A DNA stretch of 64,000 nt from Gluconobacter thailandicus F149-1 = NBRC 100600. GTDB taxonomy: Bacteria; Pseudomonadota; Alphaproteobacteria; Acetobacterales; Acetobacteraceae. This document shows, piece after piece, positions 32,809-38,374 of the stretch. The stretch's first letter is position 1. Every line of letters starts with the position of its first letter. Made by a program: the position numbers and the translations under genes. Where the stretch lies: the NCBI RefSeq assembly GCF_000964465.1, contig NZ_BANH01000005.1:62001-126000 (forward strand), given 5' to 3'. The notes under the pieces are model-generated. The model did not search any database. It saw only the letters and a list, made by a program, of their open reading frames with translations, and was not told the origin of the DNA.

Positions 32809-33264
32809 TCAGGCTGAAAGACGAGCCTTCACCAGCCCGCTGGCCCTGGCCGGATCAAGATCGGAACCGAAACGCTCTTTCAGAGCCGCCATGACCTTGC
32901 CCATATCCTTCATGCCTTCTGCACCGACAGCCGTTACAGCCTCATTGATCGCAGCTTTCAGCGTGCCCTCATCCAGCTCAGGCGGCAGATAGGACTGGAT
33001 CGTAGCAATCTCGCCCTCTTCCTTCTCAGCAAGCTCCGGACGACCACCCTGACGGTACATGGTGGCAGACTCTGTGCGAGACTTGATCATGGAACGCAGG
33101 GCGGAAATCATTTCCGCTTCCGTCACTTCTCCACTCTTGGCGCGAGCCGCAACCTCGAGATCCTTGAGCTTTGCGGTGATGCCGCGGATCTGCGCTACCT
33201 TCTCGGACTGGCCGGCCTTCATTGCAGCCTTGAGATCGTCCATGATCTGTGCACGAAGTGACAT
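32809..33264 (-). CDS. yqeY: GatB/YqeY domain-containing protein
   Basis: A 151-residue YqeY protein, an all-helical fold related to the tRNA-binding tail domain of GatB. The pattern M-x-L-R-x-x-I-x-x-D-L-K-x-A-M-K, then I-K-S-R-x-E-S, E-I-x-x-I-x-x-Y-L-P and the C-terminal G-K-V-M-A-A-L-K-x-R-F fit the family. The exact role is not established. In alphaproteobacteria it commonly lies between carA and dnaG; here carA is divergent from it, but dnaG is 8 kb away. Confidence 0.93.
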   Translation of the reverse strand: MSLRAQIMDDLKAAMKAGQSEKVAQIRGITAKLKDLEVAARAKSGEVTEAEMISALRSMIKSRTESATMYRQGGRPELAEKEEGEIATIQSYLPPELDEGTLKAAINEAVTAVGAEGMKDMGKVMAALKERFGSDLDPARASGLVKARLSA

Positions 33265-33364
33265 GCGCCTTCTCCCATCTGTTCAGAGGCCCGGAAGCCT
33301 CAGTGTCAATTCATGGCCGCAAAATCGCACAAAAGCAGGCTTCCAACAATGGAAGGCGCGAGAC

Positions 33365-33423
33365 GGGAAGTTTTTTCCCACCCTTTCTTTTTCCATCAAG
33401 AATCATGTGGGAAAAAACTTCCC
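33365..33423. promoter_or_regulatory. Perfect 17-bp inverted repeat upstream of carA
   Basis: The arm at 33365-33381 and the arm at 33407-33423 are exact reverse complements, 25 bases apart. Each arm also contains its own palindrome, GGGAA-N5-TTCCC, with centres 44 bp apart. It lies between the divergent yqeY and carA genes, about 60 bases ahead of the carA start. Two matching dyad sites on one face of the helix suggest a pair of operators; a long hairpin in the leader is the other option. Confidence 0.6.
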
Positions 33424-33483
33424 ATCCGTGCGCCAATCGCTTATCAGACCTGAAAGTGAACGCGGAGCCAGGAACGGGCGACC

Positions 33484-34857
33484 ATGGACATCGACAGAAT
33501 CATCGAAAAAGCCGGAGGCGCGGACGAGATCGCCGCTCTTGCCGGCGTCGGCCTTGAGGCCGTCCGCAAATGGCGTCAGTCGCGAACCGTGCCGACCAAG
33601 CACTGGCCCGCCCTGCTGCGCGTTCCCGGAATCGAACTCCAGGATCTGACTTCCGCTGAAACCCCGCAACAAAGAGAGACGGACGTGTCCAATTCCTGCC
33701 CTGTCGGCGCCAATGCCGCCCTTGTCCTTGCAGATGGCACGGTCCTGTGGGGCCGAGGCTTCGGCGCCCATACCGATGGCGCCGTTGGTGAACTCTGCTT
33801 CTCCACCGGCATGACCGGCTATCAGGAAACCCTGACAGACCCGTCTTTCGCCGGTCAGATTGTCACCTTCACCTTCCCGCATATCGGCAATGTCGGCACG
33901 AACACGGACGACAATGAAGCGCCCAAAATGGCTGCTCTTGGCGCCATCGTGAAGGAAGACGTGACCGCTCCGGCAAGCTGGCGCTCCATGGAATCCCTCG
34001 ACGGCTGGCTAAAGCAGCACGGCCGCGCAGGCATCAGCGGCGTCGACACCCGCGCTGTCACCCGCTCCCTGCGTGACAATGGTCCGCAGACTGCCATCCT
34101 TGCCTTCCCGGCGAACGGTCGGATCGATACCGACAGCCTGCTGAACCGCGCCCGTCAGTGGCCCGGCCTCGAAGGCATGGATCTTGCAAAAGAGGTCACG
34201 CAGCCAAAGCGTGTCTGGACGGAAGGCGTGTGGGAAAGCACCCGCCCCGCCCGTACCGAGAACCGCCGCCGCGTGGTCGCCATGGACTACGGCGCCAAGG
34301 ACAACATCCTGCGCTGCCTCGTGACCGCCGGTTGTGACGTCACCGTTCTGCCCGCGACAGCAACGGCCGAGGAAATTCTGGAACTGAAGCCCGAAGGCGT
34401 CTTCCTGTCCAATGGTCCGGGCGACCCGGCAGCGACCGGCACCTATGCCGTCCCGGCCATCAAAAGCGTTCTGGATGCCAACGTGCCTGTCTTCGGCATC
34501 TGCCTTGGTCATCAGCTTCTGGCGCAGGCCCTCGGCGGCAAGACCTACAAGCTGGATCGTGGCCATCGCGGCGCCAACCAGCCGGTCAAGGACATCGAGA
34601 GCGGCCGCGTGGAGATCACCAGCCAGAACCATGGCTTCGCCGTGGATGAGAAGTCCCTGCCGGCTGATGTGAAGGTGACGCATGTGAGCCTGTTCGATGG
34701 CTCCAACGAAGGCATTGCCTCCACCACGAAGGACGCCTTCTCCGTTCAGTATCATCCCGAGGCCAGCCCTGGCCCGTCTGACAGTTTCTATCTTTTCGAG
34801 CGTTTCGTCGCGGTCATGGACCGTCGCGCCGCCAACAGCACGAACGCAGGAGCCTGA
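33484..34857 (+). CDS. carA: Carbamoyl-phosphate synthase small subunit with N-terminal HTH domain
   Basis: CarA hydrolyses glutamine and passes ammonia to CarB for carbamoyl phosphate, the precursor of pyrimidines and arginine. The amidotransferase site is complete: Cys340 (G-I-C-L-G-H-Q), His424 and Glu426 (H-P-E-A). The unusual part is residues 1-67: a Cro/YdaS-type helix-turn-helix (about residues 4-45; G-G-A-D-E-I-A-A-L-A-G-V, then V-R-K-W-R-Q, then V-P-T-K-H-W-P-A-L) joined in frame, with no stop. A GTG at 33685 with a purine-rich site upstream would give the usual 390-residue CarA. Either the long protein, or the two forms, are made. carB follows by 3 bases. Confidence 0.93.
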   Translation: MDIDRIIEKAGGADEIAALAGVGLEAVRKWRQSRTVPTKHWPALLRVPGIELQDLTSAETPQQRETDVSNSCPVGANAALVLADGTVLWGRGFGAHTDGAVGELCFSTGMTGYQETLTDPSFAGQIVTFTFPHIGNVGTNTDDNEAPKMAALGAIVKEDVTAPASWRSMESLDGWLKQHGRAGISGVDTRAVTRSLRDNGPQTAILAFPANGRIDTDSLLNRARQWPGLEGMDLAKEVTQPKRVWTEGVWESTRPARTENRRRVVAMDYGAKDNILRCLVTAGCDVTVLPATATAEEILELKPEGVFLSNGPGDPAATGTYAVPAIKSVLDANVPVFGICLGHQLLAQALGGKTYKLDRGHRGANQPVKDIESGRVEITSQNHGFAVDEKSLPADVKVTHVSLFDGSNEGIASTTKDAFSVQYHPEASPGPSDSFYLFERFVAVMDRRAANSTNAGA

Positions 34858-34860
34858 GCC

Positions 34861-37800
34861 ATGCCAAAACGGACAGACATCACGTCCATCCTGATCATCG
34901 GCGCAGGCCCGATCGTTATCGGACAGGCCTGCGAGTTCGATTACTCTGGCGCACAGGCCTGTAAAGCCCTGCGTGAGGAAGGCTATCGCGTCATCCTCAT
35001 CAACTCCAACCCAGCCACGATCATGACCGATCCGGGCCTGGCGGACGCGACCTATATCGAGCCAATCACGCCGGAATTCGTCGAGCGCATCATTCTCAAG
35101 GAAAAGCCCGACGCCGTTCTACCGACCATGGGTGGCCAGACAGCCCTGAACGCCGCCATGGCGCTCGACAAGTCCGGCTTCCTCAAGAAGCACAACGTGG
35201 AACTGATCGGCGCAGACGCAGAGGTCATTGACCGCGCAGAAGATCGCCAGAAGTTCCGCGAGGCCATGGACGAGATCGGGATCGAAAGCCCCCGCAGCAC
35301 CATCGCCCATACGCTGGCAGAAGCGCGCGCGGCTCTGGCTGACGTCGGCCTGCCCGCCATCATCCGCCCGTCTTTCACCATGGGCGGCGCTGGCGGCGGG
35401 ATCGCATATAACCGCGAAGAGTTCGACCAGATCGTCACAGGCGGCCTTGATGCCTCCCCGACGACGGAAGTGCTGATTGAAGAGTCCGTTCTGGGCTGGA
35501 AAGAGTACGAGATGGAAGTGGTCCGCGACACGGCGGATAACTGCATCATCATCTGCTCCATCGAGAACATCGACCCGATGGGTGTTCACACAGGTGACTC
35601 CATTACCGTTGCCCCGGCCCTGACGCTGACCGACAAGGAATACCAGCGCATGCGGGACGCCTCACTGGCGTGCCTGCGCAAGATCGGTGTCGAGACGGGC
35701 GGCTCCAACGTGCAGTTCGGCGTCAATCCGGCTGATGGCCGCATGGTCGTCATCGAAATGAACCCGCGCGTGTCCCGGTCGTCTGCACTCGCCTCCAAGG
35801 CCACTGGCTTCCCGATCGCCAAAATCGCCGCCAAGCTGGCCGTTGGCTACACGCTGGACGAACTCAAGAACGACATCACGAAGACGACCCCGGCCTCCTT
35901 CGAGCCGACGATCGACTATGTTGTCGCCAAGATCCCCCGCTTCACGTTCGAGAAGTTCCCCGGCTCCCCGGCCTTGCTTTCGACGTCCATGAAGTCGGTC
36001 GGGGAAGCCATGTCTGTTGGTCGCTCCTTTGCCGAGGCGATCCAGAAGGGTTTCCGCTCCATGGAGACGGGCCTGACAGGTCTGGACCCGGTTGAGGCGC
36101 CCGGCGACGGTTCAAAGGACGCCTATCTGGCCGCCCTCGCCGAGCCACGCCCGGAACGCATCCTGATGGCCGCACAGGCACTCCGCGCTGGCCTGACGGT
36201 TGAAGAGGTTCAGCAGGCCTGCAAATTCGAACCATGGTTCCTGCGCCAGCTGGAAGACATTATCGCCTCAGAGCGTGACGTTGAGAAGAATGGCCTTCCA
36301 AAGGATGCCTACGGCTTCCGTCGCCTCAAGGCCCAGGGCTTCTCTGACGCCCAACTCGCTCGCCTCTCCGGTCAGAGCGCCCCGGATGTTGCGGCACAAC
36401 GTGAGGCTCTCAACGTCGTGCCGGTTTATCGCCGCATCGACACCTGCGCAGCCGAGTTCGCCTCCGACACGCCGTACCTGTACTCCACCTATGAAGGCGG
36501 GTTCGGCACACCGGAATGCGAAAGCAAGCCAACCAGCCGCGACAAGATCATCATTCTGGGCGGCGGCCCGAACCGGATTGGTCAGGGCATCGAGTTCGAT
36601 TACTGCTGCGTTCATGCGGCTTACGCCCTGCGCGAAGCTGGCTTTGAAACAGTCATGGTCAACTGCAACCCGGAAACGGTCTCGACGGACTACGACACGT
36701 CCGACCGTCTGTATTTCGAGCCGCTTACGGCCGAAGACGTCATCGCCCTCATTCGCACGGAAGCCCGTGGCGGCAAGATCCTGGGCTGCATTGTGCAATA
36801 CGGCGGCCAGACGCCTCTGAAGCTCTCCCGCGCACTGGAAGAGGCAGGCATTCCGCTCCTTGGTACCCCTGCCGATGCGATTGACCGCGCCGAAGACCGC
36901 GAGCGTTTCCAGACCATGCTGCGCAAGCTCGGCCTACGCCAGCCACGCAACGGGATTGCCCGCACGCCCGCAGACGCCGAGAAGGTTGCAGAGGAAGTCG
37001 GTTATCCTGTTGTTGCCCGCCCATCCTACGTTCTGGGCGGGCGCGCAATGGAAATCGTGTACGACAACGCTGGCCTGAAGCATTACCTCAACACGGTTCT
37101 TCGTGCGGCTGGCCCGGAAGTCTCGACTGGCCCGATCCTGCTCGACCACTACCTGAACGACGCGATCGAAGCCGACGTGGACTGCATCGCCGATGGCGAG
37201 ACGGTCTATGTCGCCGGCGTCATGGAACACATCGAGGAAGCTGGCATCCACTCCGGTGACTCCGCCTGCTCCCTGCCGCCCTACACGCTCTCCCCGGCAC
37301 TGGTGACTGAACTCCGCTCCCAGACGGAAGCCATGGCTCGCGAGCTTGGCATCCGTGGCCTGATGAACGTTCAGTACGCCATCAAGGATCAGGAAGTCTT
37401 CGTCCTTGAAGTGAACCCACGCGCTTCCCGTACCGTGCCGTTCGTCGCCAAGGCGACAGGCGTTCCGGTTGCAAAGATCGGTGCCCGCGTCATGGCTGGC
37501 GCGCGCCTCTCCGAGTTCCGTCTGGATGGCGGCGCGGTCTCTCCGCATGTGGCCGTCAAGGAAGCCGTCTTCCCGTTCCATCGCTTTGCGAACGCTGACA
37601 CGATCCTTGGTCCGGAAATGCGCTCCACCGGTGAAGTCATGGGGCTGGATTCCAGCTTCGAGCGTGCGTTCGCCAAGTCCCAGCTCGCTGCCGGCGTAAA
37701 GCTGCCACTGTCCGGAACGGTCTTCCTGTCCGTCCGTGACAGCGACAAGGGACATGTTCAGCCTCTGGCCCGCAAGCTTGTGGAAATGGGCTTCACCATC

Positions 37801-38115
37801 CTTGCCACCAGCGGTACGGCATCACGCCTTGAAGCGGCCAACATTCCCGTGAAGCGCGTCAACAAGGTGATGCAGGGACGCCCGAACTGCGTGGATGCCA
37901 TCCGTTCCGGCGACGTGCAGATGGTCATCAACACATCTCAGGGCGGTCAGGCCGCCCGCGACAGTTACGACATCCGTCGCGGCGCACTGACCATGGGCGT
38001 CCCACACTACACCACGATTGCGGGCGCACGTGCGGCGACATACGCCATCGCCGTCCTCAAGGAAGGCGATCTGGGTGTCGCGCCGCTCCAGTCTTACTTC
38101 AAGGGTGAGTTCTGA
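34861..38115 (+). CDS. carB: Carbamoyl-phosphate synthase large subunit
   Basis: The 1084-residue synthetase subunit with the usual duplicated ATP-grasp layout. The N-half makes carboxyphosphate and carbamate (starting [14 protein letters not shown]), an oligomerisation domain lies between, and the C-half (starting [18 protein letters not shown]) makes carbamoyl phosphate. A C-terminal MGS-type allosteric domain of about 140 residues follows (F-T-I-L-A-T-S-G-T). It is co-transcribed with carA and followed by a strong terminator. Confidence 0.98.
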
Positions 38116-38167: not shown

Positions 38168-38374
38168 TTATTCGCCTGAATACCGAAGAATATCGCCCGG
38201 CTGACAGTCGAGAACCCGACAAAGAGCCTCGAGCGTAGAAAACCGGATCGCTTTTGCTTTCCCTGTCTTGAGAATGGAGAGATTGGCAAGCGTCAGATTC
38301 ACCTTCTCTGACAGTTCCGTCAGAGACATGCCTCGCTCTTTCAGAAGTTCATCCAGACTGACGTGAACAGGCAT
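38168..38374 (-). CDS. XRE-family helix-turn-helix regulator (YozG-like)
   Basis: A 68-residue DNA-binding protein made of little more than one XRE helix-turn-helix: M-S-L-T-E-L-S-E-K-V at about residues 16-25, then L-A-N-L-S-I-L-K-T-G-K, and the closing L-E-A-L-C-R-V-L-D-C-Q-P-G-D-I-L. It directly follows the DUF2975 gene (stop and start share one base region at 38374), the common partner pair. Probably represses or activates the pair through the palindromes at 38936-38999. Confidence 0.88.
   Translation of the reverse strand: MPVHVSLDELLKERGMSLTELSEKVNLTLANLSILKTGKAKAIRFSTLEALCRVLDCQPGDILRYSGE

Follow-up and report, generated by a model that had tools for sequence, protein, structure and literature searches.

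A Cro-like domain on carbamoyl-phosphate synthase subunit CarA and paired palindromes upstream of carAB: a candidate self-repressing enzyme in Acetobacteraceae

Carbamoyl phosphate supplies pyrimidine as well as arginine synthesis, and in Gluconobacter thailandicus F149-1 = NBRC 100600 the small subunit of carbamoyl-phosphate synthase (CPSase), CarA, is encoded as part of a longer protein. Within the stretch of DNA analyzed here (64,000 nucleotides; hereafter, the window), a single open frame of 457 amino acids on the forward strand (33484-34857) runs from an ATG at 33484 to the end of CarA without a stop, and a GTG at 33685 lies in the same frame, 67 codons past that ATG. The in-frame fusion is real, as the initial annotation had read it; that annotation also offered, as alternatives, a bifunctional enzyme-regulator and two products from one frame. 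The locus raises the question of what the additional N-terminal part (hereafter, the head) does, whether it acts on DNA, and if so, on which gene.

The head contains a Cro/YdaS-type helix-turn-helix (HTH) domain (residues 1-56, 33484..33651, + strand), assigned by family, profile, and predicted-fold matches. Residues 1-67 searched alone, the check proposed for the HTH reading, showed HTH-type similarity: they matched the NCBIfam family NF046037 'carph-isopro' with 64.5 bits (E 7.3e-18, cut-off 38), and in the whole protein the match covered residues 3-56 with 60.4 bits, again above the curated cut-off. Pfam YdaS_toxin scored slightly under its cut-off (27.2 bits against 30, E 3.4e-6), and the matches to P22_Cro (E 0.029) and to PHROGs regulators (best E 3e-4) were weak. 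A PDB search with a 37-row profile returned Cro-type chains as all four top matches, and for three of these E did not exceed 1.1e-3 (5w8y, 1.5e-4; 3bd1, 2.5e-4; 2hin, 1.1e-3). The full-length AlphaFold2 model based on 37 aligned rows (mean pLDDT 85.4, pTM 0.79) places helices at residues 3-9, 13-20, 24-33, and 38-44, disorder at 58-67, and CarA thereafter; the third helix (residues 24-33, window 33553-33582, + strand) is the predicted recognition helix, in which R28, K29, and W30 are invariant across the 37 rows. When a model of the head alone (pLDDT 84.1) was compared using Foldseek, ranks 1-6 were all Cro-type, with Xfaso 1 Cro (3bd1; TM 0.71/0.74) at rank 1, followed by XPH1, P22 Cro, and N15 Cro, the best E-value being only 0.042. 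The HTH reading of residues 1-67 is therefore confirmed by NF046037, by the Cro-type PDB profile matches, and by the Cro fold matches.

The head is joined by a linker (residues 57-67, 33652..33684, + strand), predicted to be flexible (in the full-length model, residues 58-67 have pLDDT <50), to the glutamine-hydrolysing CPSase small subunit (33685..34857, + strand; TIGR01368, PF00988, PF00117). TIGR01368 matches residues 78-446 over model positions 1-360 of 361 with 445.7 bits (cut-off 307), Pfam finds the CPSase_sm_chain (PF00988) and GATase (PF00117) domains, and C340, H424, and E426, which we take to be the catalytic Cys/His/Glu triad of CarA, are identical across 37 aligned rows. The large-subunit gene carB (34861..38115, + strand) begins 3 bp past the carA stop codon and encodes CPSase large-chain domains including the oligomerisation and MGS domains. 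Upstream, carA shares its intergenic region with a divergent yqeY-like gene (32809..33264, - strand; PF09424 YqeY, 137.5 bits). Directly past carB, on the opposite strand, lies a gene for a 68-aa Cro/C1-type HTH regulator (38168-38374, - strand; PF13443, 79.6 bits).

The proposed comparison of carA N-termini across Acetobacteraceae revealed that the head is family-wide and not a peculiarity of the window genome: the domain was found in 190 of 200 sampled family genomes (189 above the cut-off), which rules out chance for the fused head. Among the best 80 of 356 named relatives, the closest are Gluconobacter frateurii and G. japonicus, with 99% over the head, and within the window's own genome a search for further copies of the domain gave only sub-cut-off matches. 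For counts independent of the operator, 131 loci were read in order of E-value, comprising the strongest HTH matches and not a random sample; head and CarA motif share one frame in 129 of them, and these 129 were counted. The two loci dropped because the CarA motif was missing in frame were L172, in which CarA sequence lies 3' of the head but the frame breaks early, and L199, a different gene. Shortened HTH-CarA frames were seen in L048 (genome G033; 189 aa from stop to stop) and L172 (genome G088; 220 aa), with CarA sequence continuing beyond; either a frameshift or an assembly error would account for both.

Ten family genomes lacked the domain. One (G029) has a full CarA without a head, four (G026, G178, G146, G069) gave partial CarA matches, which in G026 and G178 begin at a contig edge, and in five (G019, G039, G110, G163, G167) CarA was not found at the threshold used. 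Genome G116 has a headless CarA and is counted among the 190 solely for a separate carph-isopro frame of 82 aa (L316, C1:2074574-2074711), which lies near the end of the main contig. In a class-wide sample, the domain occurred in 72 of 385 genomes. The fusion was sought outside the family by tblastn with the window CarA in 43 domain loci of other families, with flanks of about 1.5 kb, less in some, and none matched, whereas six of seven control loci did (the exception being L199); the class sample holds further domain matches. Five of the 43 loci were searched with Pfam, and four proved to encode mitofilin-like (Mic60) proteins, joined in frame by HemD in two cases. These four loci from other Alphaproteobacteria (L052, L053, L055, L078) carry a variant Cro-like domain, GGIRPMAxKLxVPVTTVQGWK, in one frame with the Mic60/mitofilin-like protein, HemD being present in L055 and L078.

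The region proposed as the DNA target of the head, 33365-33423, coincides exactly with a pair of palindromes of the form GGGAA-N5-TTCCC, which makes it a candidate site on sequence evidence and gives carA a palindromic operator-like element in its own promoter region. The distal putative operator, GGGAAGTTTTTTCCC, occupies 33365..33379 and has a matching distal site in many relatives; the proximal one, GGGAAAAAACTTCCC, occupies 33409..33423, 44 bp from the distal site start to start (no strand is assigned to either). The GGGAAAAAACTTCCCAT of the proximal site is identical in all 21 rows of a Gluconobacter alignment, with varying flanks. In the 64-kb window, GGGAAN5TTCCC occurs twice against 0.11 expected, and none of 100 shuffles contained two. 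A scan of the 300 nt upstream, with one mismatch or fewer, found exactly two sites in 100 of the 129 operator-blind loci, one in 21, and none in 8, so that the full pair is missing in 29, while 300 nt within carA, as a negative control, held a site in one of the 129. At most two mismatches being allowed, 118 loci have two sites, spaced 37-40 bp in 96 of them. Of the best 80 of 356 named relatives, 78 have the CarA motif, with two sites in 70 and one in 8. A larger set of 138 loci includes loci among 30 that were fetched for having the double site; the main counts were redone without these, and the column table, residue-32, and leaderless counts given below come from the 138-locus set, operator-selected loci included.

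At the scale of whole genomes, the strict double pattern occurred at one place each in 66 of 200 family genomes (backward control, 0) and was missing in 134. In 64 of the 66, read as loci, it lies 13-74 nt ahead of the HTH domain match, and in the remaining two (G159, G102) it precedes the HTH domain by coordinates; three of the 64 (L094, L095, L172) failed a simple CarA regular expression, but tblastn found that CarA follows in all three. The strict pair was found in none of 380 genomes of other families, the sole match among 385 being that of the window itself. The single palindrome occurs at nine places in the window's own genome, against three in the backward control. Each of the seven places away from carA lies within at least one open frame of at least 120 codons, and since the carA sites do likewise, this criterion does not sort them. 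A wider regulon was considered and set aside, as a second palindrome pair was not found in the genome. That there is one pair per genome suggests a role in keeping CPSase constant and not in controlling a regulon.

Two comparisons tie the palindromes to the head. In genus g30 (G029 = L114, G116 = L113), CarA has no head, and the palindrome was not found within 300 nt upstream of carA, even at two mismatches; here GGAG stands ahead of an ATG near the position of the relatives' internal start. Because the head is nearly universal in the family, the headless carA of g30 probably reflects loss, and because the joint absence is limited to one genus, it counts as at most one event. The second comparison concerns residue 32, which falls within the predicted recognition helix. 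Half-sites facing Gln32 have G as their outermost base in 438 of 488 cases, and those facing Ser32 or Ala32 have C in 10 of 12 and 3 of 4 (together 13/16); with Thr32 (C in 3/12) and His32 (1/4) the base is mixed, and locus L039 combines Gln32 with C as the outer base. On the tree, the five Ser32 rows cluster in one clade and the Ala32 row stands apart, so that the shift in specificity is based on about two events. The shift of the outer base with residue 32 is thus suggestive, not proof, of a tie between head and operator. With the paired promoter palindromes, their joint presence and absence with the HTH, and this partial shift, the idea of a bifunctional enzyme-regulator has gained strong comparative support.

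The same data bear on the possibility that an unlinked regulator binds the palindromes and that the head of CarA serves oligomerisation or protein contact. Comparative data reach the site and its neighbor, and the identity of the binder lies beyond them; moreover, related heads sit on mitofilin-like proteins of other families, where DNA binding is not obvious. An unlinked regulator would nevertheless have to explain why the strict pair, wherever it is found, stands at a single place in the genome and always before HTH-carA, with none in the 380 genomes of other families, why it is absent together with the head in g30, why its outer base shifts with a residue of the recognition helix, and why R28, K29, and W30 are invariant. 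We regard it as unlikely. The reading that we consider well supported and likely is that CarA acts as a trigger enzyme whose Cro-like heads would bind the paired palindromes and repress carAB.

How binding could repress is suggested by the position of the proximal site. In a column table of 127 loci aligned on it, T, T, and G prevail at -7 to -5 (81, 77, and 79%), and the palindrome with one flanking base per side spans 17 bp, after which T, A, and T follow (59, 72, and 45%). TTG, 17 bp, and TAT around the proximal site indicate that in relatives the operator occupies the spacer of the core promoter. In the operator-blind set, a TTG in -35 register precedes the proximal site in 78 of 118 loci, and none of the 118 distal sites has one in the equivalent position; TA in -10 register was seen in only 55 of 118. 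A study of G. oxydans promoters (PMC5756330) gives ttGnnn as the -35 element and nAtnnn as the -10 element, the latter becoming Tatnnn for transcripts in the top 5%.

The proximal site begins 27-30 nt ahead of the ATG in 80 of 118 relatives, a distance that would put the transcription start at or beside the ATG. A Shine-Dalgarno (SD)-like score of at least 4 at the main start was found in 20 of 94 loci with the site at that position and in 29 of the 44 others (n=138), and the low SD scores suggest a leaderless mRNA in much of the family. Gluconobacter falls among the 44 others, with sites beginning near -119 to -125 and near -75 to -81; those of the window start at -119 and -75, further upstream than in most relatives. 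The candidate -35 of the window, TTCCCA (33419..33424, + strand), overlaps the proximal site and lies 17 bp before the candidate -10, TATCAG (33442..33447, + strand), whose TAT is conserved across the 21 aligned Gluconobacter rows. A consensus scan of the carA upstream region did not find a sigma-70 promoter, so that the family-wide column table carries the promoter argument; with a poor -35, no promoter in the scan, and sites further upstream in the window, the register argument comes from the relatives.

This register also helps to judge whether the fused protein would activate carAB instead of repressing it. Sites upstream of the -35 element are the usual position for activators, and the distal site lies there, whereas the proximal site lies in register with the -35/-10 spacer, where a bound Cro-like dimer is expected to exclude RNA polymerase; activation is accordingly a rather improbable reading. 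Even less probable is that the inverted repeats work as RNA, as a terminator, attenuator, or riboswitch of the carA leader. The two sites do make a 20-nt inverted repeat, and two of three terminator-like scan matches fall at them, but in 80 of 118 relatives transcription would begin past the proximal site, and each site is itself palindromic, with conserved outer bases and a free center. An Rfam search of 33100-33750 gave nothing at the gathering score, its three weak matches to miRNA and plastid models lying far below, and an RNA element at the carA leader was rejected on that result.

The other part of the initial reading concerns the products made from the frame. The candidate internal start, GTG at 33685..33687 (+ strand), is the canonical CarA start and is preceded by a candidate SD sequence, AAAGAGAGA (33671..33679, + strand), a reading supported by codon conservation. 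In 21 carA genes from Gluconobacter, 75 of 345 testable codon columns are identical; codons 64-68 (AGA GAG ACG GAC GTG) form the longest run of these, and the GTG and its AAAGAGAG are invariant in all 21. For G. oxydans, passages of PMC5756330 report GTG as 9% of starts and an aGGAg ribosome site.

Across the family, internal starts with sequences resembling ribosome-binding sites occur more often than expected by chance. In 118 linkers (11 of the 129 loci, lacking an anchor, were omitted), 88 in-frame ATGs were found, spread over 82 of the 118 loci, and 78 of these ATGs reach an SD-like score of at least 4 of 6, compared with 54 ATGs in the +1 frame (11 with such a score) and none in the +2 frame. 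A second count, which begins nearer the head and so takes in some ATGs of the domain end, covered 135 loci (3 of 138 without anchor were left out): the linker stretch contains an ATG in 102, only GTG or TTG in 14, and none of the three in 19. In these 19, the long form must serve as the enzyme unless another start codon is used.

These counts bear on a further rival reading, namely that translation starts from GTG 33685 only and the HTH frame is an untranslated leftover. The invariance of the GTG with its AAAGAGAG in Gluconobacter would fit such a start, as would the headless genus, which begins carA in the matching N-terminal stretch with GGAG before the ATG. A leftover would, however, hardly be kept in 190 of 200 genomes with recognition-helix residues invariant in 37 rows, and the 19 of 135 relatives just described point to the long form as enzyme; we hold translation from the GTG alone to be extremely improbable. 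The two-product idea gains support from in-frame internal starts with SD-like sequences. Thus, the regulator and the second product that the initial annotation had set against each other both stand, but not as alternatives: the evidence favors both together in many species, probably including that of the window.

The preferred reading, repression of carAB by the Cro-like heads, can be set out as a mechanism. Heads of CarA subunits would dimerise on the two GGGAAN5TTCCC palindromes of the carA promoter, and the head-bound operator would exclude RNA polymerase, which would place the carAB operon under repression by a protein that it encodes. The heads may be kept together by CPSase assembly, one CPSase oligomer bridging both sites. 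We infer here DNA binding by the head, repression rather than activation, and bridging by a single oligomer. As a guess, the signal might be a ligand of pyrimidine or arginine-pathway origin, or else the level of CarA in proportion to CarB. From the internal start with its SD-like sequence, plain CarA without a head would be made in many species, and probably in the window species too. In a more far-reaching version, which we put forward tentatively and rate somewhat below even, one gene would encode the whole feedback circuit: the first ATG, on a leaderless mRNA in much of the family, would yield the repressor-enzyme and the internal SD start plain CarA, the two would be mixed with CarB in CPSase oligomers, and the number of Cro heads would let operator binding report CPSase level or ligand state.

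Enzymes that repress their own pathway genes are known: BirA and PutA each combine an enzyme and a DNA-binding part in one polypeptide. They differ from the present case in enzyme and in DNA-binding fold, and CarA acts together with CarB. Phage Cro operators are palindromic and lie near a promoter. Phage Cro (Xfaso 1 Cro 3bd1, N15 Cro 2hin/6on0, P22 Cro 1rzs) and YdaS are small HTH proteins and gave the best profile and fold matches, whereas here the domain sits at the N-terminus of a biosynthetic enzyme whose putative target is a single paired locus. In Escherichia coli, passages of a review describe many separate regulators of carAB, including the trigger enzymes PepA and PyrH (PMC6245113). 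Those enzymes regulate the same operon, while here the DNA-binding domain sits on CarA itself; the passages of that review do not report an HTH on CarA, and 'Acetobacter' and 'autoregul' do not occur in its main text.

The same domain, matched above the curated cut-off, is already known to NCBIfam curators as NF046037 carph-isopro, an entry whose consulted part names the domain alone. Judging by that name, which seems to stand for carbamoyl-phosphate synthase fusions, the curators probably know the CarA fusion as well. Literature searches on the name carph-isopro or on a CPS-HTH fusion gave no match, and a description of the operator or circuit was not found in the literature searched, in which subscription journals are thinly covered. 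Self-repressing enzymes as such being known, what would be new here is one of CarA type that combines an internal start with a paired operator placed in the spacer of the promoter.

Across one bacterial family, a regulator appears to have moved onto the enzyme itself, with one paired target in the genome. If this is true, the CarA fusion would offer a clean, minimal enzyme-repressor for studying how metabolic state reaches DNA, as well as a case for how a phage-type HTH joined an enzyme, in a family that includes the industrially used Gluconobacter.
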